Positions 1 through 51,364 of a stretch of 64,000 nt of DNA are shown here, piece by piece; position 1 is the first letter of the stretch; the number at the start of each line of letters is the position of its first letter. This stretch comes from Antedon mediterranea. Taxonomy: Eukaryota > Echinodermata > Crinoidea > Comatulida > Antedonidae. The stretch spans positions 23,852,288 to 23,916,287 of the forward strand of contig NC_092676.1 in the NCBI RefSeq assembly GCF_964355755.1. The letters are read 5' to 3'. The translations under genes and the position numbers were made by a program. The notes beneath the pieces were generated by a model that made no database searches, was not told the DNA's origin, and saw only the letters and a list, made by a program, of their open reading frames with translations.

Positions 1-320
1 CTGTGTGTAATTTAATGAGTAAATTATAGTGTTATATTATCGACAAATCAAGAACGAGTTTGCAAAGACAAATTTACCAAGAAAATATAATTTGCTAAGC
101 AAATTAAACTCACCTTGTTTGTTATGTTAAATGACAGAAAAGAAAAACAGAAGTTTGTACATAGCAAAGAAATAACCAAATGCCTCAACATCCTATACCG
201 TCTGGATTTCCTAAGGTCACTAAAAAAGCAAAGTAAATTTAAAAGCTGTCAAAAATATCTGTTTCGCTGGCGATATTTCAGATTTTATGTTAATATTAAA
301 CGGGTTTTATTTGTTCAAAC
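1..320 (-). other. left edge: intron of receptor gene, rest of 7TM domain off-window
   Basis: No coding exon can be supported here. Read on the minus strand, the last bases at the window edge end in ACACACAG, which looks like a splice acceptor, so the next exon of the receptor gene (TM2 onward) may begin just outside the window. This is inference. A short plus-strand open frame at 115-324 has no recognisable features and is likely chance. Confidence 0.4.
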
Positions 321-3300
321 CTGAGCAAGCATATGATACACATGGTGAATATAAGAAACCCGTTGGATATTGTCAACCCTGCATACGATAGTACTTCCAT
401 TCCAACGGCAGCGTTTTCATCTACATTTGAAGTATCCTGAAATGATATCAGCAATTTACGTTACATTTAAGTTTTAAGGTAAAATGCCACGCATACATTT
501 TACAAAATGTGTAATTTTGTTTGCCCGATATCCTAAAGCGTGGTTCCCACTAGCGATGCAACACAAGGACGTAACGCAACGCAAGTGAATTGACCAATCA
601 CAAGCAATGGCTTATTCGCTTGTGATTGCTAACTGTCTATAACTTCGCTTGCCATTGGTTAAAACGCTTGCGTTGCGTTTACGTCCTTGCGTTACGTTCT
701 CTAGTGGGAACCAAGCTTTATCTGATCAACAACCATACAAACCAAGCTTTGTGTTGAGTTTTTTTTTATTACCATAGTATATGAATTTCATAATATTCAT
801 AACTTAACATAGTTAATTACAATAATTAAAAATAATAATAAATACTACAGTAGTAATGAATACAATTTATGTGTTTAAATTTTAAATGTAAATATGTATA
901 ATTATGTTTGTATGATGATGTATGTTTAAGCGGATATTAGCCCTTGATGGCATTTGCAGCAATAAAGAAATTGAATTGAATTGAATTGAATATACAGTAC
1001 ATCTCCTTAAATATTGAAGTTCTTAACACATTCACTTAGCGTATTAAATTCTTAGCGTATTCACACAATTCATATCAATTTGGCATATTCATTTCTTAAC
1101 ATAATCATTATTTTAGCATATTATTGTGTTCATTTTTATATATAAAGATTGTCGGGTTGCACCAAGGTATACTACATTCGTTGATAAAAACATGATAGAT
1201 TCTTGTAACTGATCAGATCGATACAGATCAATTACTCATTCGGAATCGCTAAGTTGCAATCGGCTTTTTCGGCAGTGGGATCAACCAAAACTCAAACATG
1301 GCAGATTTGCCCCCCAAAAAACAACATGAAAACAATCAAGAATGAAGTCATACCTCTGACGTTTGCATAAGAATTGCAAACGTTGTCAGGTGGTTACATT
1401 GACAAGTTATTGGTGAAGTCAGAAAATCTTCTGATATAGTTTCGCAGCCTTCTTTAGACCATGTGCTTAAATAAACAAATTTGATAATTTGGATGATAGA
1501 AACTCGCAAGACAACATAAACTCTAATTTGTAATAATAATTTTTTTTCGATTTGTGGGTGTGAAACTCTTATATAGATGTCCCTCCCCCACCCCGACACT
1601 AAGCAAACACTTACACAGGGTTTACAGTTTCATCAATAAAAGAACAGATTGGTTCCATGTTTGCAAGTTCTGTATTTTCAGATATCTAAACAAAACACAA
1701 TATTGATTAGTGCAGAATAAAGACTATTGGTTTTATTCATAATTTTGTCGTAGTCATTATTATTTTCAAAACTAGTTATACATTTTGTATCATTTAGTAT
1801 ACATAGTATTGTTTAATTTCTAGGCCCTATTCCAGTTTTACACGATCAATTTTTGTGTTAATTAATAATAAAAAGATGTTTATTTACCCTTAATGTTGGA
1901 AAAACAAGTTTCACATTCGCACTTCGTGCATCATTTTGTCCATTAACATAAACTGTTACAGATACAAGATCACTCACAACTTCAGAATGTGTAAGATTGC
2001 TACTAAATATGAAGAAATGAAGAAATGAAAATAAGAGGGTTTGATAGTTAAAGATTGAGCAAGGGTGCTAAATTGGACATAACAACGCATAGTATTTGTT
2101 GTATTTTGTCTGATGACTGCGTGTATACACAGAGTTTTTTTTTTAAAGGGTAAATTTTGGAAATAATATTATGGGGAGATACGAGGATCGAGTAAATACT
2201 TACGGTATTGACACATTTACAGATATCAATTTTGCTGCGATTATTCCAATTGATTCTATTTAAGAAATGAACTACAATTAGTGGACAAACACTATTTAAT
2301 AAAAATCCTGTAAAACATTTTAACAGCTTTTCTTAGAGTGAAAGATCGAACTCAGAACTAACTAAGAACTTGTACTTCCCCAAGTCTGTAGTTATTGACA
2401 TTTTTTTATGTTAATCCACCAAAAGTCGGCTTTTCGCTTTTTGTCTGAACATACACGAGCTCAAATAGTATACGTATGAAACGCCATATGTCAAAATATT
2501 TATCTGTTTACTAATATTTTAAGGGAGTGAAAGAAACTTGTATTTGCTGTACTACTATACAGTACATAGAGCTTGTTGATTCCAATCAAACCGGTTTACT
2601 GTGACTGTGACTACTAAAGCGCAACGCAAGGACGTAACGCAACGCAAGTGAATTGACCAATCACAAGCGATGGCTTATTCGCTTGTGATTGCTAACTGTC
2701 TATAACTTCGCTTGCCATTGGTCAACACGCTTGTGTTGCGTTTACGTCCTTGCGTTACGTTCTAGTGGGAACCAAGCTTAAGAAACAGTAACTTACCATT
2801 TGTGTTTGCGTCTGATTCGAGTGCAAATTCAATTGCATTTGGTCCCTTTGTTATAGGAGTTAATTCAATCGTTGGACTTGATGACTTAATGAGTACACCA
2901 TCTAATGTATAAACATAATTAAACTTAGATAATCTAACAACAGGATGCTGAGATAAAAGGGTTTATCTATGGCTGCGACACGATCAGTTTCACGCTCCTT
3001 GACAGACACTGCGCGCCGCAGTGAATAATGTACATAGTACAATGCTGTTGGTTTTGTCGCAATCAGACATAAGATCAAAAGAGTGCCTATCTTAGCAAGG
3101 CGAGCTCAGTGTCCTGTTGTAAGATTGCCTTGGTTACATTCATTATATGTAAGATACAAGATACAAGTCAACTTTATTACATCACCATCAATACGCTTCA
3201 TATTGTTGTTAGCAATATGGCTACTATTTTGTGCCATTTATTCCTGTCGTGGGCCTCGTGTTTCTCAAGTGGCCTAGTGTAATTTAGTGCGGTTAGTAAT

Positions 3301-6300
3301 TCCGGAGGCATATCACCTTTATTGTCAAAATACAATTTTGAGATATGTTCTGTATCTGAGTAGAATCATTAAATAATACGGATATATCCAATATTTAGTG
3401 TTCATTAGTGCGCATTTACCAGATACGTTTTAATTCTTATATGTGAAATATACAACTGACAGGACATAGAATTTCAATAGTCTAGTATCGAATATTTTGA
3501 TAAAGACATTTAATTATTATCGAAAACTATTTTTTTAAACGGAATTTTAATTATTACCTGCTTTGTCATCCATCGTAAAATATTTCGACTCTCCGTCTGC
3601 TAGTTGATACAACTCAGAATAGAGCACAGAAGTGATGTTATCAACAAGGGCAATGACGTCATTTGAAATGTCGGTATCTGGTCATTTAAGGGAAGTAAAT
3701 GTTAAAATATAGCTAGCAATTTTGAAATCTTAAATTTTGAAAATCGTTAGAAAGTCATACACGATGATGATAGAAGATGAAAGTATATAAAAAAAATAAA
3801 TATGGCCTGATGTGTAGACTCAATTAAAGTGAAAATGTTTTAGTCTCAACGATTATAGGCAACGTCTTATATAGGCATAAGTTAAGATAAGTAGTAGTAA
3901 TTAGTACAGTCTTGTATTTTTAATGTATTTATATGTAATGTTACTTTCTATGGACCAGCGATTCCGAAATAAAAGATTGAATGAATGAATGAATGAACAC
4001 ACCAGTTTATTGTTAACCACTTCGACAGAAAGTTATTTTATTTTATAATATTAGACATTCATTCCGAATATCGTACCTTGTGGATCATCGTTAAAACATC
4101 TAACACTAGCTGTTTCGGAGACCAAACAACTTCCAATTCTGCCAATTCCATTATGAAGGCAATCACTAAGTGTTGCCTCGGAACCAACACATTGCATCGA
4201 CTTAACTATAGGATTTGCTTCTCCGTGATACGAGCCCGTGTAGACTTCAACGGCAGACGCGTAACCTAGCTGTCGACAAGCAATTGTCCCATCATCAATG
4301 TCCCATCCGTCATCACAAACCGCTCCCCATGCTCCGTTTTTGTCAGATATCTCCACTCGACCTTCATTGGGAGATGGTCCATTTACTAGTCGAATATCTA
4401 GGACCGTATAACAAAACATTTATAAAAATTAAATTTTACCTCATAAAACTTCGTAAATTAAAATGGAGGCCCGTTGTCTGGAAGTCAACGTGGTTTCTGG
4501 TTAAATTGAACTTTATTTTGTCTTTTTTCCCCCAATAAAAAAAAACCCCATATATTTCTCAAATTACATTTATATACAGACAATTAGCCTACATAAATAT
4601 CTATGACAATTTAAATAATAGCTTCGTGGCTATACGTTTTTCTCCTCTTTAATACAGTCTTTTATTTCTTCTTTACTTTTCTGACCACAGAACACAATTA
4701 TTTTCTTTACCAACAAAAAAAAGAAAAACAAAATTAAAAATATTAATTTTGCAAAAGTAACTTTCATCTTTTTGAAATTTAACACTTACTATATAATAAA
4801 ACAGTTCTCATTAAATGTTAGGAAGGGGGAAGTTAATTTAAAGCTCTGTCTACACTATTAAACTTATGTGGCAACAAAATGTGATGTGCCGATACATGGA
4901 CATGATGTCATAGAATAGTTGTAATATTCTTGTTGCTTGTGTTTGAACACATATGCTCCATAACTAAAAAATGTATTGTAGATGGAGAAGTATCCTAAAC
5001 TTAGAGTTTGCGAATTTTCATTTTCTGTTTGTACGTTTGTTGATATGGATGAATTTTCCAAAATAATAGAAATTGAAATTGAAAATATCTCTACCATATT
5101 TGTCAAACTAGTTTGACAGTGTAGACAGAGCTTTAGATAACGGTGCACTGTACTCAGTAAAGTTTATTTAGATAAGTGTTAAGCTCTGTCTACACTATCA
5201 AACTTTATGTGACAAAAAAGTGTGATGTGCCCTAATATTGTAGTGATATGACGTCATCGTGTCCGTATATATAGATTTTTGTCACATAAAGTTTGATAGT
5301 ATAGACAGAGCTTTAGATTACAGTATGCCTACCTAGTGTCGTATTCCTACAACGAACTCCAGCAAGTTGAGTACGGTTATAGCAACTCTCAGATATAATT
5401 CCAAGTCCCCCTGCACCACCGCCATTTGTACATTCGCTCAATGCATTTTCATACCCGTTGCAGTCGACTCCATCTGTAACCATGCCACTACCTGTGCCGA
5501 ATGTGGCGTATCTTTCGTAGTCGTAACAGGAACGATAATTCAAGTACCTACATGCGACTGAACAAGCCTTAAAGTTCCAACCAAATGAACAGATTCCTCC
5601 ACTGTAACTGGCGTTAAATAACAGCTCAACTAGACCTTCATTAGGTCCATTTCCACCCACAAGAATGATTTCTGTACATAAAAGCAAAATCACGGTATCA
5701 ACAAAATTGTACATTTGTATAACAAAATTAATGCAAAGCCCTAAAGACGTATATTACCTACTGTATACACACAAACAACAATAGGGCAACAGTGTAAAGC
5801 TCTGTCTACACTATCAAACTTTATGTGACAAAAGATGTGATTTTCCCATATATGGACATGACTATATCACTACCATATGTGGGCATATCACTACCATATT
5901 TGGGCACATCACATGACGTTTTTGTCAAACTAGTTTGATAGTGTAGACGATGCTTAATACAATAAACAACGGCTACAATACAGTGACTATAATACAGTAA
6001 TACAAATACCATTAAACACAAATGTAATTACCTTGTAACTCGGCCATCACAATTTGGTATGCTATGTAAAAACAGTATACAGAAAATAGAATGGTTAGAT
6101 TGCTCAAAAGACCAAAAGTGTAATAAATTATAATTTATAAATCAAAATGCAAATTACTGAGAAAAATGGCGATGTTGTGGGTATCAGTTGCTGGATCAAA
6201 GCTATAAAACAGCCGAAACAAAATTGTAGAGTTTTTTGGGCACTAACCCTTGTTCGGTGTTAATTAAACTATGTTAAATAAACTTGCTTTTTTATTAAAA

Positions 6301-6394
6301 TATTAATTTATGTTTTTATATTACCCGAATAGTTAAACGTTGTAAAGACCAAGACAATCTTGATTAAAATCGCACGGAAGTACATCGCCCACAT
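321..6394 (-). CDS. adhesion-type GPCR with two SRCR domains, GAIN/GPS and TM1 (3' end off window)
   Basis: Minus-strand multi-exon gene. Exons in transcript order: 6394-6325, 6061-6032, 5671-5333, 4397-4077, 3677-3558, then one unresolved junction, 2933-2797, 2255-2204, 2002-1888, 1685-1615, 1465-1354, 436-321. Phases agree at every junction except between 3558 and 2933, where an exon is probably missing from my model. Exon 1 starts MWAMYF and gives a hydrophobic signal peptide of about 23 residues. Exons 3 and 4 each encode one SRCR domain (about residues 35-146 and 148-253). The first has eight Cys (GGICSFGW, SVACRYLNY); the second has six (GAVCDDGWD, ACRQLGY). Next comes a GAIN-like region (DISNDVIALVDNITS) and a GPS motif with W..GC and CQCNHLTTFAILM, where autoproteolysis would fall at HL/T. 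Exon 436-321 carries a TM1-like stretch (VLSYAGLTISNGFLIF). The family tethers extracellular adhesion domains to a cell-surface 7TM receptor. Ligand unknown. SRCR domains at this position are unusual. Confidence 0.8.
534..720. mobile_element. MITE-like inverted-repeat element, family B copy 1
   Basis: About 187 bp with long terminal inverted repeats: AAGCGTGGTTCCCACTAG at the left matches CTAGTGGGAACCAAGCTT at the right. Inside, ACGTAACGCAACGCAAG is mirrored by CTTGCGTTGCGTTTACGT. It has no coding capacity. It lies in the receptor intron between the GPS exon and the TM1 exon. The same sequence recurs at 2.6, 18.8, 20.4 and 22.6 kb. Confidence 0.85.
760..992 (+). repeat. LINE-like 3' tail ending in a TTGAA microsatellite
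   Basis: AT-rich stretch ending in AATAAAGAAA followed by repeated TTGAA units. A poly(A)-signal-like word followed by a short tandem tail is typical of non-LTR retroelement 3' ends. A similar tail is at 17.04-17.10 kb and a related GAAT tail at 3.97 kb. Assignment to a LINE class is inference. Confidence 0.45.
2369..2520. repeat. dispersed repeat, family F copy 1
   Basis: Shares CCCCAAGTCTGTA, TTTTTGTCTGAA, TAGTATACGTATGAAACGCC and ATATTTATCTGTTTACTAAT with 9226-9363, with small indels. Non-coding; sits in a receptor intron. Confidence 0.65.
2614..2781. mobile_element. MITE-like inverted-repeat element, family B copy 2
   Basis: Near-identical internally to the copy at 534-720 but lacking the outer left tip (it begins AAAGCGCAACGCAAGG). 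The right end GTGGGAACCAAGCTTAA is intact. It ends about 15 bp downstream of the splice donor of receptor exon 2933-2797. Confidence 0.8.
2925..3133 (-). mobile_element. MITE-like element, family E copy 1
   Basis: On the minus strand it starts CCAAGGCAATCTTAC, continues with GGACACTGAGCTCGCC, GATCGTGTCGCAGCC and GATAAACCCTTTTATC, and ends in a degenerate TTAGATT terminal repeat. Related copies are at 22.15, 24.36 and 36.35 kb. Its degenerate end overlaps the splice acceptor of receptor exon 2933-2797. Confidence 0.75.
3134..3345 (-). repeat. retroelement-tail-like repeat
   Basis: On the minus strand it ends in AATAAAGTTGACTTGTATC followed by TTGTATCTTAC, a pattern seen at LINE/SINE 3' ends. 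A short open frame upstream (PPELLTALNYTRPLEKHE) resembles retroelement remnant more than receptor sequence. Low-confidence call. Confidence 0.35.
3890..3998 (+). repeat. LINE-like 3' tail with GAAT microsatellite
   Basis: AATAAAAGATTGAATGAATG-type end with four to five GAAT units, resembling a non-LTR 3' tail. Located in the intron between receptor exons 4397-4077 and 3677-3558. Confidence 0.45.
4840..5135. mobile_element. MITE-like element, family A copy 1 (long variant)
   Basis: Terminal inverted repeats AAAGCTCTGTCTACACTAT and TAGTGTAGACAGAGCTTT-type end, but 296 bp instead of about 140-165 bp because of extra internal sequence between GACATGATGTCATA and ACCATATTTGTCAAAC. First half of a doublet with the next copy. 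Confidence 0.8.
5180..5315. mobile_element. MITE-like element, family A copy 2
   Basis: TTAAGCTCTGTCTACACTAT to ATAGTATAGACAGAGCTTTA; near-complete palindrome with GTGACAAAA mirrored by TTTTTGTCAC. It lies just downstream of receptor SRCR exon 5671-5333, in the following intron. Confidence 0.9.
5795..5956. mobile_element. MITE-like element, family A copy 3
   Basis: TAAAGCTCTGTCTACACTAT left end; right end GTTTGATAGTGTAGACGATG is mutated at the tip. Lies in the intron upstream of SRCR exon 5671-5333. Confidence 0.85.
6140..6250 (+). repeat. dispersed repeat, family H copy 1
   Basis: GCAAATTACTGAGAAAAATG, then GTGGGTAT and AAAACAGCC, match 31503-31660 in the same order. Non-coding; in the first receptor intron region. 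Confidence 0.5.
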
Positions 6395-7283: not shown

Positions 7284-7550
7284 ACTATGGCATAGTCCAT
7301 CCATGGCATAGTCCATCTATGGCATAGTCCATCTATGGCATAGTCCATCTATAGCATAGGCCATCTATGGCATAGGCCGTCTATGGCATAGGCCATCTAT
7401 GGCATAGTCGAACTATGGCATAGTCCGTCTATGGGATAGTCCATCTATGGCATAGTCCATTCATGGCATCTATCCATGGCATAGTCCATCCATGGCATAG
7501 TCCATCCATGGCATAGTCCATCCATGGCATAGTTCATCCATGGAATAGTC
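7284..7550. repeat. 16-bp minisatellite, about 17 units
   Basis: Tandem units of CATAGTCCATCTATGG with point variants (CATAGGCC, CATAGTTC, CTATAG). The unit is partly self-complementary (CCATGG, CTATGG), so the minus strand looks very similar. An open frame crossing it on the minus strand is a by-product of the repeat. Confidence 0.9.
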
Positions 7551-8169
7551 AATTTTTGGCAATATTACATATCTAATAACTACATAAATAAATCGATATG
7601 ATTTATATCCCACCACAAATTTTATTTAAAATGTACAATTCCAATGTTGCATCTTCAATTACCATCAAAGTTTGCTTTATATAATTACGTTTTATCGAAT
7701 GTATCGTATCTCAAGGTCCATGTTTCACTCTATGATTACATTCATGATTAAGATCTCTCACAATGGTTAATATGTTGTAATAAATAAAAAACATAAAAAA
7801 GTGTAATTAGCCCGAAAGGTTCTAGGTACTACAATCATTACGTACGGTAAATTTGTCAAATCATTAATAGGTACATACATAATTCTTTTCTTGTTGTCTT
7901 GTATAGTTATTGCTGACAATGACTTTGTCCACAAAAAAAATGAATAATAAGCATTAACATATTAAAAAATAACATAACATTTGATTATTCTATGGTTAAA
8001 AATGGTTGGGAAATAATTGTTATCTCCTTAATATCTAGAATCTTTAACAGTGCATAATTTGTTTTGTGTTTTATATTTCAAACATGCTTTGCTGCCCTCT
8101 CTGTCTAGAACCAAACAAAAATGAGTTTATGAAGTTTTAAGTAACTCCACACAATTTAAGCGAGCGTAG

Positions 8170-12773: not shown

Positions 12774-15700
12774 CTATATTACCGTAGATATATCGCTTCC
12801 TTCGGCAATATTATCTTCTGTACTTGATGTGACTATGGATGCTTCTGAATCTAAATATTCATCTATAGAGTTTAAAGTGATGTCGTTACGTTGAGGATTT
12901 CTCTGTTTCGACTTATACACTTGTTCCAGACGAATTGGCAATGGACGTATCAATGCCTTCTGTAAAGGACTACGCTTTGAGCCGAACATACCCCTGTGGA
13001 TTTCATTTCCATATGCCTGGTATCCAGCATGTGGGCCTGGCAAATACATACGTGGCTTCCTAGGGTTGATGAGGTCTTGTGAATTCAACTTCTCTACAAG
13101 CCTGTAGAGCTCTAATAGCTGTGATGGATCTGGTACATCCTGGTTATCAATTGGATCATCAGCATTCGTAAGAGGATTTGGGTTAGCGCTTCTATATGCA
13201 AAGTATTTCCCTTCGTTGTAGTCAGGCATATCAAATCTGTGCCCTCGCCGGCTTTCCAATTCTGGGGAAACGGAGATAACATGCGGTAAAAATCGACCGA
13301 ATTCCCTAGAATCACTAGGCCGAATTAGTTCGGGCATATATACGTCATTGTTGAAAACCTCACTTTGCTCGCTTTCCGAATCAAATGGTTCTTGCAGATC
13401 ATAGCTGGATATGTCAATAGATTCTTCTAATGCGTCCCATACATCATTTTCTACTCGGGGCGCCTGAAGACTTCGTTTGGTTTTACTGGCTGCTGGAACT
13501 AAATCATCCGCAATGTGGTTTAAGTCAAACGGAACTAAGAAATCATCGTTTCCTTTAATAAAGACAAATATATAATTGTATTAAATGAAGTAACGCATAT
13601 CTACATTTCTGACATTTAGTAGAAATAATAACTTTTTTCAGTTAATTTGTGTTCTGTTTTGATACACTTCTCCCGTTAGTTACCTAATGTGTGCTAATTC
13701 AGGAACAGCAGAGTGTTTGGATTTAAGACATTGTCAATTATTGGAATGCATTTTGTCAAAAGTTTGTATATTGTCCGTGACGTTCTAAGCATTCTGGTAA
13801 GAGGATTTGAAAATGTAAGTTAGGAAAAAGAAGTATATCAAGGCAACGACAAATTGTAAAAGATTTGATATCTTTCCAAAAAAGTTAAAAACATTCCGGT
13901 ATTAATAGAGGATTTTCACATAAAAGTAATAAGAAAATTAAGTTTATCAAGGCAGAAATAGCATAATTATCTTACAAATTACCTCTTTTTCGCATTCCTT
14001 CAAGTGTTGGAAAGTTTACTGCGTAATATTTAAATAAATCTACTGCCCTCTTATTTCTTTTATCTCCCTCATAAAACGGCATGTCATTGAAAGCCTCGGC
14101 CACATTATTAACGTCACCAGGTCTAGGATATCTTGCTAGAGCCTTCTCAATATCCGCTCTTTTAGGATCCACTTCATTAAACTCCTCTTCTTCTATATCG
14201 GAAACATCTTCAGAGACACTACTGAACAGTTCAGATACCTCAGAAGAAGTTAAACTAATGTCATAATAAGATGATGATGAAAGAGAAGAAGTATCAGTTC
14301 CATCAACTTCTTCCTCTTCTTCATTATCACTTTCTTCAAAACTTTCAAGAGAGCGTTTGCTTCTTCGAGTTTTCACTTCGTTGATGGCTTCCTCCATACC
14401 GCCAACATCGTTAGTCTGCTCTTTGCTGTTTTCCTCACTTTCTCCACTCTCAAAATCAGTTGGTCTGTCGTATGAAGGATCCTTAATAGTGTCATAACTA
14501 TCACTATCAAAAACTGTGTTCTTAAAACTGTCGTCTTCTGATCCTTCACTGAATTCCGTCAACCAGGAGAGTTCTCTCCAGTCTCCGATGTAGCTATAAT
14601 ATTCTCCATAGTTACTTTCACTTGCCATTTTCACGGAGCTAATTAGTTCATCTTCTACTGGCTGTTCCTTTACTGATGTGTCAATGAAAGATGATAGGTC
14701 CGAACTTTGATCTTCTACGTCTGAAATTTGACCTTCTACGTCAGACGGTAGTTCAGACGATGGTATGAAGATCATGTCATACGGTAGGTCATTTGGTAGA
14801 ATGTTTGAAGACGAATATGCAATTGTATTATTTGGATTAAAGTTTGCAAATGTGTTGTCGCCGGATGCCTCTGTTTCTTTAGTTTTTGCTTCTTTTGTTT
14901 CACCTTCAGTTGATATACCAGCCATTAAGTTTACTTCATCTATTAAAATAAAATCAAGAACATCAAGAATTATTTCAACAAAACAAAATGAAAAGTTTGT
15001 TTCTATCTGGAATGAATATTTAAGTACGACAAACAAGTATAAAGTTTGTACATAAAATAGTTGGATAAGAATTATCAGAAATTATATCATAAAGTTATTA
15101 TATTCTATAGAATGTAGTTAGCGGCAAATAGTCTAACGGAAGTCTAGACTTTGCTTTATAGTTCGGCTCTGCTGGCGCGTCTTACTACAAGTTATGCATA
15201 ATGGAACATAGGCCTACGGATCAAGTAGAAGACGGATCGATCTTTTGTAGTTCACAACGCGACCTCATAACACCTTACAACAAATAGTAATTTGAAGTCT
15301 GGATGATTAGACGCCATTATATTGCGAACAAGAGATAAAGCGTCAAGAAAATGCATGTCTGAGACTTTGTACATTAATACATTCAAATTTGTTTATAACT
15401 CATTGGTTTAGTTGCATCTAAAGCGTTTTGGTATGAGTTTCAATTTGCGACGACCGACGACCTATATTGCAATTTGTGTCGTTGGTTGTCACCTGGACCC
15501 CAAATTCTTAAAACGTTCCGGTTTGAATGATTCTGCGTGCGCACAATTTTTAGATCGTCGCAAATAGCCTAATAAGCTCCCTATCGACACATATTCGAGA
15601 GTGACACATTGAAATATGATTGAAGCATTTATTCACATAGCTACCGCTTGGCACCAAAGGTATACCAACGTTAAGGCCAATTCACGAATGGTAACGGTAA

Positions 15701-16737
15701 TACGAATATAGCGACGGGCGGTTTCCGCTAAAGATAGATACAGACTCTACATGGGACAATTTACTCGGTTTTCCGCTTACCGTTACCGCTCATCTGTGTG
15801 AATTGGCCTTCTTACATGTAACCACATGCGTAGACGTTTGGTTAGACGTAATTACTTTCAACCAAAATACCCCACCCATTCAATACATTCTTCCCCTTCT
15901 ACTTTTAGTATTAACCGATGGATAATTACGTGAATCTTAATTGGTGTTATCTGTCAATAATTGCTTTCGAAAAACGTACAGCGAGTTGTTGGCTTACTCT
16001 TACGCACGGATTGCTAATAAGCATCATTTAAGGATTCGGCTAACCAATGAAGCGAATCCAAAATCAGTTTAATGGATGACCGTTTATAACTATATAAACC
16101 TATTTAAATACGATATTAAATTTCAAAACTGCATGCTATTGTTTTATGAGTTACAATCCTGGCACTAGGTCAGGATTGAACCATAGACCTTGGGATTGAA
16201 GGCAAGCACCTAACCACTTTACAGCTTCATTACTCTAAATGTGTAAATGATGTATTTATAAAAAAAAGAAGTATTAAATAATTATAATAAATAGGCCTAT
16301 AATGATGAACACAAAAGGACAATTAACTTAAGCTCTGTCTACACTATCAAACTTTATGAGACAAAAATGCGATATGCCCATTTATGGACATGATGATGTC
16401 ATATCGCTACCATATTTGAGCATATCACAACCATATTTGGGCATATCTCACATTTTTGTTCAAACCAGTTTGATAGTGTAGACAGAGCTTTATATTAGCT
16501 TATAGAAGTGTTCACGGAATATTTTGACAGCGAGTTTTTGATGTATAATAATAAATCAAAAAGGTAATTAGGAGAGATTAAAATTGAAGTTATGACATAT
16601 CTACCTTGTACGTTTGTGTTTGGTTTAAAAATGTCACCGCCTGAGGTGTTCTCTAAGACAGGTGCGCCAGCAACGCGTTGGCTGCTCTTCATAAATGCAC
16701 TCACCATGACAACGAAAAACAGACGATGTAGAATCAT
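12774..16737 (-). CDS. cysteine-free acidic secreted precursor with dibasic sites (granin/neuropeptide prohormone-like)
   Basis: Three coding exons: 16737-16605, 14939-13983, 13552-12774; both junctions are phase 1, giving 622 residues. The start MILHRLFFVVMVSAFMK begins a signal peptide of about 24 residues (cleavage plausible near RVAG/APVLE). An acceptor-like CTTGCCAG just upstream suggests a 5' UTR intron. The body is rich in D/E/S, with no Cys seen anywhere. Possible convertase sites are RRSKR, DPKR, DKRNKR, MRKR, KTKR, ESRR and GSKR. Between DPKR and DKRNKR lies a 32-residue candidate peptide (begins ADIEKALARYPRPG, ends MPFYEGD), followed by an 18-residue one (AVDLFKYYAVNFPTLEGM). Cys-free acidic precursors with dibasic sites resemble secretogranin II, but I see no clear sequence match, so the family is unassigned. 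It would act in the secretory pathway. Confidence 0.75.
15672..15811. mobile_element. MITE-like element, family D copy 1
   Basis: TAAGGCCAATTCACGAATGG and GGTAACGGTAAT at the left mirror CGTTACCG and GTGTGAATTGGCCTT at the right. Contains GACGGGCGGTTT. A longer copy is at 23629-23815. It lies in the first coding intron of the prohormone-like gene. Confidence 0.8.
16148..16230 (-). repeat. tRNA-derived SINE fragment, copy 1
   Basis: On the minus strand: A-box-like TGGTTAGGTGC, then CTTGCCTTCAATCCCAAGG, then B-box-like GGTTCAATCC. The same arrangement occurs at 49106-49193. Degenerate, not a functional tRNA. Confidence 0.6.
16328..16492. mobile_element. MITE-like element, family A copy 5
   Basis: TTAAGCTCTGTCTACACTAT to ATAGTGTAGACAGAGCTTTA, with the centre GACATGATGATGTCATATC. 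In the first coding intron of the prohormone-like gene. Confidence 0.9.
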
Positions 16738-17039
16738 TGTTGAAACCTGGCAAGATAAAAATACAAAAGTGCCAAATTTAATTAATCTGCATTGATGACC
16801 ACAAAAACATATTCTATAAATTGATAAATAATTATTCATCCGTAACTTTATGCTCTGTGTCTCATTAAGTCAATTCAATTGTAGGCGTTAATCAACAATG
16901 TTTTTTTTACAGTGAAAATAATGTGTTGCGTCATTGCGTATGGTTATCAAATAACGTAAATTGTACGCAGCATTAAAACCAACGCGTTTATTAATTTAAG
17001 AAGTTGATGATTAATCAAAAGATTTCAAGAATCATGTAT

Positions 17040-47300: not shown

Positions 47301-50300
47301 AACCGTAACTTAAGGGGACACTTTTCTGTGAAGCAAATGAAGGTCAATAAAGGTCACAACAACCAACCTTTATTAAGGATACACTTTGTTGGGTGTCCCT
47401 TTAATAGGTGTTATATACAAAACACATTGTCTATGTACAGTAATAGATTTGTTTGTATTTACCCCTCTTTGAGCTTTGTGAAGTTGACCTAGGGCCTCAA
47501 CATCTAGAGGGTTCGACTCCAAGGCCCTGGCTGCTTTCAGTCTTGCGGATACCATTGTAGCTATATCAACATCCTACAAAAGAAGAAAATATTATTGTTC
47601 ATCATCATCATCGACTACTTTAAAAGGAACGAACAAATTCATCCACACTCTCATCTACCTGTAGAGTGTGACAATGCTTTTACCACTAATCTCTACACAT
47701 TGAATGCCAAAAAAAACCAAACAAATTCTAAAAGATTTTGTTATAATGTTTACCGGCGTCTTTGTTTCCTCAAAAACTCTATCCTCCGGATCTACTACTG
47801 GACCTGTAGGTGGCGCTGCAGCAACAGGTGGAACTGGTGTTGCGGTAACTGGTGTCAGGACACTAGTTGATGTTTGATTTGTAGGAAATGACAACTGCCC
47901 TCCTGCTGCCATTTTGGGAATTTCGGTAACAGATGTTTCGGTAGTGGTTGTGGCAACAGTTGTGGTAACAGTTGTGGTAGTCGGTGCCTTTGATACCGAT
48001 TCAGTAGTAGCTGGTTTCTGGTATGGCACCCATGCACCATATGGTGAAACTTCTTCCTCTTTCTTGCGATGCTGGGATCCACTGGACACAGGAAACTGTA
48101 TTCTGAGCTTGTCTTTGTCCATATTTGGTGCTCTTTGAACAGCATTCTATAAACAATTAAATGCATTATCATCAAAAATTGAAAAACCACCAAAAGTCAA
48201 ATGATTTGTGAAAGATTTAACAGCAAATAATAACATTTACCCTACTTTTTCAATCAGGTTTTAGTTTCTGCATATATAAACAAACGGGAAGTGGTGTTTT
48301 TTTTAGGTCAACTATATATCTATTATCAAGATGCAAAGAATGCAGTGTGTGACATCACAAGCTGTAATACTGGTGGTTATGTGATGGGAATCCCCTTTCC
48401 ATTCATAAAAAAATATAAAAAGACCACAGATGGTCATACAATATTGTATATGTGCTTGTGTGTAATCATTTTTGTTTATTTCAATGCAGAATACAACACA
48501 TTAAGTTCTTTATAATCAGGGAGATAATGTGGAAAACCAAAAGCACAATCTTAGGCCGGAAGATGAGTCTAAAATACAGTCTCCACGGGAATGTTGGCAT
48601 GTATGATATAAATTATTACAAAATAAATGTTAAGCTGTACTATACCTTGATATTGACAACAATACTCTGTATGTGGGGTTTTAGTTTGAATGGATGATTG
48701 ATGAACGTGTTGGATTCTTCTTCATCGGAATCTACAGGTCTATTCACGGGTGACTCGTCATCAGAATCAACGCCCTCGTCTCGCTTCTGAATTGCTTGGC
48801 AAACTGCCGTTAATTCATTTATTGTCTGCCCACCTTAATTGAAAAAAAAAAAGAATAGAAAAATCATTAAAAAATGATATATAATTATTCTTGTTTGTTC
48901 ACATTAATTAAATTTTTTTCTTCTGAGAAAGAGTACTGAACCTACCACAGTAGACTACAACTAGATTAAGCATTTTTATTTAATTTTGTTTTCGTACGCA
49001 TCCAACAGTGAGTAACTCGCCAATTACAGGATGGATAAACTATTTATAATGATGAATATTAACAAAGTCTCATTTTAGGCTTAGGGAGTGGAGTTGAAAA
49101 AGTCGTGAGTTACAACCCTGGCACTAGGTCGGATTGAACCCCGGACCTTGGGATTGGAAGGCAAGCATGTTAACCACCAAGCTACAGCTCCACTACAAAT
49201 TTAATACATACCAGCTCTTTGGCTTGCTTTATCTTCATTGGACAGCGGAGGTAGCGTCATGCCAGCTGGTAGCAAGCCTGCTTTCATCTGAGCATATGCG
49301 TTTGCTTTCGCGATTTCCAACAGCTTTGCTTTGTCTATACGTTCTGCTGGAGATCGCGAACGTGGTCGACGATCACTGTACATTCGACTTGTTTTCGTTT
49401 TGTACGAGCTTCTATTGCGTGAACGTGACCTCGAACGCCTGTGTCTTTCAGACGTATGTGACCTGCGGGGAGAACGTGACCTACGAGGAGAACGAGACCT
49501 ATGTTTAGATCGTGATCTTCTGTGTTTTTTGCTTTTTGACCATGATCGAGATCGTCGACTATCCTCATGTTTTTTATCGCTATCTCGGCTTTTCTTTTTG
49601 TGTTTCTCCGTTATCTCGCCTTCTTCATTTACAGTCTTATCCCTCTTTCGTTTCTTTGACTTATGAGATTTCTTTTCTTCTTTGTCCTTCTCCTTCTTTT
49701 CTTGTGTCTCCTGTTTATCATCAGTAATGTTTTCACTTACCGACAGAGTTTCTTCTTTTATGCATTGCACCGTTTGATTAAGATCTGGTTCTTTTACAGA
49801 AGTCACTTTGTTATCAGTGACAGGGTTCTCACTATTTTCGCTTTTAATTTGTGTGGTTGTTACCGTTTCTACTGGTATTGTTACTTCAGTGTCATTCTCA
49901 ACTTGTACACTCTGTTTCGCTTCTACTGTCTTTTCCTCCGTTTTCATTTGCTCTTCTTCTGTTAATTTATCTTCAGCAACAATTTCTTTATTTTCAATTA
50001 TAGACCTAGACTCTTCTTCTAAATTCTGTATTTGTTTTTCCTCATCTTGTTTATCAAGATTTTTAAAAGTACCAATATTTTTTTCTATATCTTTTTCTAC
50101 CTTTACAGAGATAGTTTCGTTTGACACAGCAGTACCATCACTGGCAATTGTTACATTGGGTTTCTGAGGTTCCACCGGGGGTTCCACATTGTCTTTTGTA
50201 TCAAACTCTACTATTGTTTCTTCTTTAATTTTATCATGTATTTTACTTTTCTTCTTTTCATTTGTGTTTTTATCTTCTAATTTTACTTTATCTTTAGACT

Positions 50301-51364
50301 TATGTTTTGATTTCTTGTGTTTACCCTTTTTGTGTTTATGTTTATGCCTGTGTTTCTTTTTCTTTTTATCACTACTCTTTGATTGTTTTTCTTCTAGCTT
50401 TTCTTTCACTACCGTTTTATCTTGTTGAATTTCAACATCGCTTAAACTCGAAGCAGTTATTTCGCCTTCTTCGGGTACATCGCGCCACGGCAAAACCTGC
50501 TGGTTCTCCGTTGATTCCTCTTCTGAAGATGATCCCAAGTTGTCAACCTCTTCATCTGTTTTTGATTCGATCACCTGACTTGAAGTATGATCAGAAAGAT
50601 CCTTACTAAATATTTTAATTTGTATTGGTTTTTTTTCTGAATTTTTTTCTTTTCCATTACTCTGCTTATTATTGGTTTCATCTTTGTCATCATCAGCCGG
50701 AATGACATTGTTTTTCTCACAGTGTTTCATTTTCCTCATACTCTCCTTCATTTCTTTAGCAATTCTGTTTTGAATAATGGCACTAAACATAGACTTTTCC
50801 TTTCCATGTTGATTATTTGTGTCTTTTTTATCTTTTGACATGGAATGATCTTTTGTTTTTACAGTACTTGCACTGTAACCTTTTTCTTTATTGTCTGCAG
50901 TTTCATTCTGTGGATTTCTGTAAAGAAAAGTATCAACATCACAGTAACAATATTATAAATTTAAATGAGGAATTGTCAATAGTCAATACATTGTCATTAC
51001 AATACAAATAATAATATTCATGTAAAAAAAAGTTATGCAGTATTTTAGGCCTATTATGCCTGTCAAAGGGTAGACTTATTTTAGTTAACAGACCTCTACT
51101 TTACCTTACTACTAGGCCTATCAATTGCTTTTGTTTTCTGGCTCCACTACCTAGACCTAACTTTATTTTTTTGCTGGCTGCTGTGTCTGGTTCTGGCCCT
51201 ACACTTACTACAAATATAGCTTAAAAGAGCCTACACTAACTGCAAGTAGGCCTAGGCCTAGGTAGGCCTACTCTAGATAGTTACTACCTTTGTTTTTCTT
51301 TTTCAATTGCCTGCATTTTTTGAAGTGCAAAATTCATCAGTGCATCTTGAACATTTGAGTCCAT
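44263..51364 (-). CDS. SON: SON, SR-rich DNA/RNA-binding splicing cofactor
   Basis: Nine coding exons with consistent phase: 51364-51288, 50917-49212, 48833-48646, 48146-47754, 47573-47463, 47178-47056, 45249-45102, 44690-44503, 44397-44263; 1022 residues. The big second exon encodes a K/E-rich region and an RS domain (SRSPRRSRSPRRS). Family blocks follow in order: RIDKAKLLEIAKANA, NHPFKLKP, PVSSGSQHRKKE with YGAWVP, GQFTGSTGVQIL, a G-patch (about 873-916; MGWRQGEGLGKNKEG) and a C-terminal dsRBD (about 930-1015; KHPVSALMEICNKRKW, HDSGPSHQKNFVFK, KKQAKAQAATVALQKMG). SON is a nuclear-speckle protein that promotes splicing of weak introns. Human SON is about 2,426 residues; this protein lacks its long degenerate-repeat region. 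The gene is convergent with DONSON. Exon 1 encodes only 25 whole codons (MDSNVQDALMNFALQKM...), so the start is likely but less certain. Confidence 0.95.
44880..44993. mobile_element. MITE-like element, family A copy 15
   Basis: TAAAGCTGTCTTCATTATC to TGATAGTGTAGACAGAGCTT, about 114 bp, in the SON intron between the G-patch exon and the first dsRBD exon. Confidence 0.85.
45848..45911. repeat. 20-bp minisatellite in a SON intron
   Basis: Three and a half units of AACGTCCCGCATATCGGGGA with few changes. Each unit contains a near-palindrome (CCCGCATATCGGG). Confidence 0.85.
46050..46129. repeat. 20-bp inverted repeat in a SON intron
   Basis: GACCCATCAGTGGAATGGTT at 46050 pairs with AACCATTCCACTAACAGGTC at 46110 (18 of 20 positions, or similar), 40-nt spacer. 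Could be a small hairpin element remnant. Confidence 0.65.
49106..49193 (-). repeat. tRNA-derived SINE fragment, copy 2
   Basis: On the minus strand: TGTAGCTTGGTGGTTAACAT, GCTTGCCTTCCAATCCCAAG and B-box-like GGTTCAATCC, then GACCTAGTGCCAGGGTTG. Same family as 16148-16230. It begins 19 bp beyond the donor of SON exon 2. Confidence 0.65.

Follow-up and report, generated by a model that had tools for sequence, protein, structure and literature searches.

A probable tethered-agonist adhesion receptor with two N-terminal SRCR domains in a tandem gene family of the crinoid Antedon mediterranea

We describe here a gene of the crinoid Antedon mediterranea that begins in a 64,000-nucleotide stretch of its genome (C7:23852288-23916287, C7 being contig NC_092676.1; hereafter the window, with positions counted from its first letter) and runs beyond the left end of that stretch. 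Read on the minus strand, the gene, designated copy D, comprises 17 exons and, judged by its domains and by its relatives in the same genome, is very probably a functional adhesion G-protein-coupled receptor (GPCR) gene with two N-terminal SRCR domains, a member of a tandem family, whose product would act as a tethered-agonist receptor. An earlier sequence-only reading, made from the letters without database searches, had proposed a single gene for an adhesion-type GPCR of the order SRCR-SRCR-GAIN-GPS-7TM (7TM, seven transmembrane helices), and this proposal was upheld by the joining of all 17 exons in phase and by Pfam matches to SRCR, GPS and 7tm_2.

Twelve of the exons are located inside the window, between positions 6394 and 114, and the other five (exons 13-17, encoding transmembrane helices TM3-TM7 and the tail) just to its left, outside the window, at C7:23852022-23849653; their presence averts one of the outcomes named beforehand as refuting the earlier proposal, a lack of 7TM exons on that side. 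In genomic sequence, all 16 joins possess a GT donor, an AG acceptor and matching phase, and exons 2 to 6 are all of phase 1-1. Exon 1 (6325..6394) encodes a hydrophobic start, putatively a signal peptide (the hydrophobic run was recognised by eye), and exon 2 (6032..6061) the end of the signal-peptide region. The start exon had been correctly placed at 6394-6325, but the Met common to copies A, B, C and D is found at window position 6385, three codons inside the start given earlier at 6394; the joined protein accordingly counts 725 residues from the first ATG and 722 from the conserved Met. SRCR domains 1 and 2 occupy exons 3 (5333..5671) and 4 (4077..4397), respectively, and the GAIN-like region is distributed over exons 5 (3558..3677), 6 (2797..2901), 7 (2204..2255) and 8 (1888..2002). 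The acceptor of exon 6 (..acattag), ending at 2902, brings the exon 5/6 join into phase and is kept in B, C and D. Exon 9 (1615..1685) holds the start of the GPS with its first Cys and links the GAIN part in phase to exon 10 (1354..1465), where the GPS continues with the HL/T cleavage site and the TTFAILM tethered-agonist sequence; exon 11 (321..436) encodes the stalk and TM1, and exon 12 (114..219) TM2. The exon chain previously read at 321-6394 was thus borne out, but it was incomplete, as it lacked the exon at 1685-1615, the TM2 exon at 219-114 and anything outside the window. The joined model has seven transmembrane helices and a short cytoplasmic tail. Judged from the comparison of copies given below, the exons at these window positions are those of a real gene, since conserved frames and phases together with synonymous-biased substitution make a chance origin untenable.

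In the joined protein, Pfam 7tm_2 (PF00002) was matched with an E-value of 2.7e-37 and 128.8 bits (cut-off 20.6) over profile positions 4-250 of 250, and GPS (PF01825), ahead of TM1 at residues 396-440, with an E-value of 1.5e-8 and 35.5 bits (cut-off 22.5). SRCR (PF00530) was matched in two stretches (E 1.1e-35, above the curated cut-off), and the claim of two single-exon SRCR domains held for each exon searched alone, with scores above the PF00530 cut-off of 52.5 bits (E 6.4e-14) for SRCR1 (5671-5333) and 85.4 bits (E 3.6e-24) for SRCR2 (4397-4077). The two domains have eight and six Cys, respectively; group A SRCR domains are named for six Cys and group B for eight (PMC13228809), and the comparison made here is one of Cys number. 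The structure predicted for SRCR1 from the two window exons had a mean pLDDT of 33.6, too low to use. The GPS cleavage motif is given in the literature as H-X-S/T (PMC13062082), and the focal protein, whose GPS is canonical, carries the triad H430 L431 T432 followed by TFA[I/V]LM, which is kept in the five genes B, C, D, E and F. By its 7tm_2 and GPS matches and its cleavage triad, the predicted product is an adhesion GPCR (class B2), and by its two SRCR domains it belongs, at the level of sequence, to the SRCR superfamily.

Copy D is part of an array of five genes at C7:23.80-23.86 Mb, three of them intact (B, C and D), one broken (A) and one diverged (E), and a sixth gene of the same plan, F, was found on contig C2. 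By blastn, copies A, B and C match 16 of the 17 exons of D, the remaining one being exon 2, for which blastn gave a match in C alone; in A and B this exon was recognised by eye. In B and C all splice sites are kept and the phases are as in D. In the broken copy A (C7:23822122-23814577), exon 4 is frameshifted, exon 11 contains an in-frame stop, exon 14 has lost its donor, and the donor of exon 2 is without GT when read by eye; the copy keeps the exon order and the HLTTFA[I/V]LM sequence. Protein identity to D is 92% for C, 79% for B, 49% for E and 47% for F. The two diverged genes, E (C7:23812197-23800089) and F (C2:6765401-6757874), which were modelled from exon 3 onward, so that exons 1 and 2 are absent from their models, have the SRCR-SRCR-GAIN-GPS-7TM plan with SRCR, GPS and 7tm_2 all above the Pfam cut-offs. 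In both, each SRCR domain is closer to its own counterpart in D than to the other domain (in E, 40 vs 28% identity for SRCR1 and 38 vs 28% for SRCR2; in F, 38 vs 30% and 38 vs 32%), so that the SRCR pair probably predates the split. In copy F, GAIN exon 5 occurs twice in tandem, at C2:6763078 and 6762664, the first without a fitting acceptor by eye.

The ratio of nonsynonymous to synonymous substitution (dN/dS) was estimated by the Nei-Gojobori method as whole-domain averages, with copy A excluded as broken; for E and F, many segments gave an undefined or a saturated dS against B or D. Within the trio B, C and D the ratio is 0.10-0.14 in exons 11-17, 0.34-0.35 in the GAIN exons, 0.44-0.47 in SRCR2 and 0.36-0.68 in SRCR1, the highest value (0.68) being that of the D-C pair in SRCR1, and every defined value is below 1. 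Exons 11-17 are under purifying selection, and the ectodomain changes faster than the 7TM part among the copies, a pattern as compatible with relaxed constraint as with changing ligands. Diversifying selection on the SRCR domains was considered and rejected, as domain averages below 1 wherever the ratio is defined speak against strong selection over whole domains. Exons 13, 15 and 16 show 90-100% protein identity between copies and SRCR1 57-86%; with most of the signalling part in common and a more varied SRCR1, the tandem copies probably share an output and receive somewhat different inputs. Synonymous divergence varies along the gene: between D and C, the signal, SRCR and GAIN parts have a dS of 0.08-0.13 and exons 11-17 one of 0.23, and between D and B, dS in exons 13-17 is 0.27, yet the introns of this pair hardly align. 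Such variation hints that the copies have exchanged some sequence in their TM exons, possibly by exon-scale gene conversion. The introns are equivocal here, as the D-C intron-rich block i13-i15 in this part is itself more diverged, with 78.9% identity compared with 82.4-87.7% in the other blocks longer than 800 bases.

Among proteins of solved structure, searched with phmmer against PDB, the best matches of the focal SRCR pair were chains of CD163 (M130), which is not a GPCR, and those of the GPS and 7TM part were ADGRD1 (E 1e-42), then ADGRL3; with a five-gene profile the order was reversed, ADGRL3 standing just ahead of ADGRD1. The likeness to human ADGRD1 (PDB 8x9s) and ADGRL3 (PDB 7wy5) is thus one of PDB matches and does not include the SRCR part. 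The GPS regions of the focal protein and of ADGRD1 both carry C-x-C-x-HLT-x-FAILMQ, with FAILMQ identical.

These features suggest how such a receptor might work. It would cut itself at HL/T while folding, and the SRCR-bearing fragment would stay non-covalently bound after cleavage. The SRCR pair would engage a fixed ligand, be it a microbial surface, the matrix or a neighbouring cell, and a pull on the ligand or loss of the fragment would expose TTFAILM, which would enter the 7TM bundle and turn on a G protein. We infer cleavage, retention of the fragment, exposure of the agonist and G-protein activation because the adhesion GPCR family works in this way.

Several points weigh against this reading. 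The GAIN-like stretch measures only approximately 190 residues from SRCR2 to the end of the GPS, and of these only the last 93, starting in exon 8, align to ADGRL3, and weakly (E 1.3e-5); the domain search of the joined protein advocated by the sequence-only reading, productive for SRCR, GPS and 7tm_2, gave no GAIN match in Pfam. The contrast in rates between ectodomain and 7TM part is tempered by exons 11, 14 and 17, which are more divergent between copies than exons 13, 15 and 16, and the highest ratio, that of D-C in SRCR1, is a rough estimate from little difference (dN 0.056, s.e. (standard error) 0.015; dS 0.082, s.e. 0.034). Finally, an immune role for the receptor would be drawn solely from the habits of its domains.

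The strongest alternative concerns function: the receptor may be real and serve to attach cells to one another or to the matrix, during development or in neurons, rather than in immune recognition. We consider this a serious contender, falling somewhat short of an even chance, and regard immune recognition and tissue adhesion as about equally probable. Among solved structures the 7TM part is closest to ADGRD1 and ADGRL3, with the EGF-TM7 receptors ADGRE5 and ADGRE1 scoring lower, and no dN/dS value exceeds 1. The SRCR domains also matched neurotrypsin and lysyl oxidase homologue 2, neither of which is known as an immune protein. On the other hand, the tandem amplification with faster ectodomain change observed here is more usual in recognition genes. 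In one sponge, the genes that responded to microbial patterns included one with SRCR and a different one with GPS (PMC6208332), and SRCR has been named an immune-cell marker in a brittle star (PMC11959729), no SRCR-GPCR being concerned in either case. Much weaker, and in our view unlikely, is an adhesion-only or decoy receptor whose 7TM part no longer signals; the short cytoplasmic tail and the short GAIN part would suit it, but constraint among B, C and D is strongest in the 7TM part, and HLTTFA[I/V]LM is kept in all five of the genes B to F and even in the broken copy A. That an SRCR gene and a separate, neighbouring GPS/7TM gene were wrongly joined is highly improbable and was rejected, for although the joins are read from genomic sequence only, exon order and phases are identical in B and C and in the diverged E (C7) and F (C2), and the broken copy A also keeps the exon order.

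The sequence-only reading had hinted that this architecture was new, and here it was mistaken: the SRCR adhesion GPCR build is already in print for amphioxus and sponge and is listed for a starfish. In amphioxus, SRCR domains were reported in the N terminus of Adhesion-family GPCRs (Nordstrom 2008, PMC2246102), a position shared with the focal gene, the likeness being one of published description; the authors stated that they knew of no GPCR outside amphioxus with SRCR. This is in line with the earlier remark that no human adhesion GPCR is known to have such an architecture, human proteins having been covered here by the PDB matches. In the sponge Amphimedon queenslandica, Aq712029 and Aq715659 carry multiple SRCR repeats on Adhesion GPCRs (Krishnan 2014, PMC4302439); for Aq715659 a basal position relative to human groups I and II was given, the former of which includes the latrophilins (PMC2246102). 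As far as the description allows a comparison, these two share with the focal gene the SRCR repeats on an Adhesion GPCR, and they differ in belonging to a sponge. In another echinoderm, the starfish Acanthaster planci, 7tm_2 is one of the five domains most often combined with SRCR, according to a 2024 survey that covered the SRCR genes of 29 animals (PMC10855680, Table 1); the resemblance is to a table entry, and 7tm_2 is outside the top five in the sea urchin column of the same table. Neither 'GPCR' nor 'GPS' was found in the main text of that survey, nor GPCR, 7tm or GPS in the main text of a sea cucumber genome paper dealing with 37 SRCR loci (PMC13228809), nor 'adhesion G' in a starfish coelomocyte proteome paper (PMC13409769). 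Within this literature, we found no gene-by-gene account of an SRCR adhesion GPCR in an echinoderm.

Further GPS and SRCR loci were surveyed in the genome by reading neighbourhoods by eye from 150 scored candidates among 180 for GPS and 150 among 408 for SRCR, so that the numbers given are lower bounds and further SRCR-bearing adhesion GPCR genes may be present. Three more distant 7TM relatives were recognised, with kinship taken from the TM exons. Two of them, at C10:4.84 Mb (C10:4839947-4844721) and C5:12.0 Mb (C5:12006889-12007125), have LDLa exons upstream of the GPS exon (four of five open reading frames (ORFs) at the C10 locus and both at the C5 locus were tested; five of these six pass Pfam PF00057 and one is without a match), an apparent ectodomain swap relative to the focal family. 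In the third, from a cluster at C3:7.6 Mb, the 7.5 kb searched ahead of the GPS exon gave no SRCR match. A less similar adhesion GPCR at C3:33428956-33421954 carries a single SRCR domain (102.5 bits), a Ser/Thr-rich stretch and a GPS (62.1 bits), with 7tm_2 exons of 49.6 and 57.6 bits that share only approximately 30% identity with the 7TM exons of the focal gene. It should be noted that the LDLa-bearing relatives and this SRCR gene are known as separate exons or ORFs and not as joined models. The occurrence of SRCR on so dissimilar a receptor suggests that, in the history of this genome, adhesion GPCRs acquired the domain repeatedly or exchanged it among themselves, unless its presence in both is ancient.

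Other loci from the same survey include an SRCR match at C5:2648544-2648837 (minus strand), located 26 kb upstream of a GPS match on the same strand, which is possibly a further SRCR-GPS gene. At least 13 strong GPS matches on one strand form a run of 0.39 Mb at C9:18607566-18998802, by its sequence matches a large tandem family of GPS genes, and at least 11 were found at C7:2285068-2320980, ten of them with equal score and spaced 2.9 to 5.7 kb apart, representing either recent amplification or an assembly artefact. Within the window, a 16-base tandem repeat of 17.5 copies (7285-7561) lies approximately 0.9 kb upstream of exon 1 of the focal gene. Farther along, at 12774-16869 (minus strand), ORFs for an acidic protein with dibasic sites, and a separate ORF with a signal-peptide-like start by eye, may be granin- or neuropeptide-precursor-like, and a Lys/Arg/Ser-rich ORF of 583 residues at 49201-50952 (minus strand) is splicing-factor-like by eye.

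A broader scheme, which we put forward tentatively and consider rather unlikely as a whole, would have a single adhesion GPCR chassis (compact GAIN, GPS and 7TM) to which SRCR pairs or LDLa repeats were added by phase-1 exon shuffling, and which was then amplified in tandem with its TM exons kept alike, giving an innate recognition panel with a shared tethered-agonist output. Since the build has already been published for sponge and amphioxus, the focal gene opens no new class of receptors. It does provide, in one genome, a complete model of such an SRCR-type receptor with its introns resolved, accompanied by close paralogues, by a broken copy and by relatives bearing another ectodomain, and thus natural material for asking if tethered-agonist signalling can be driven by SRCR modules.

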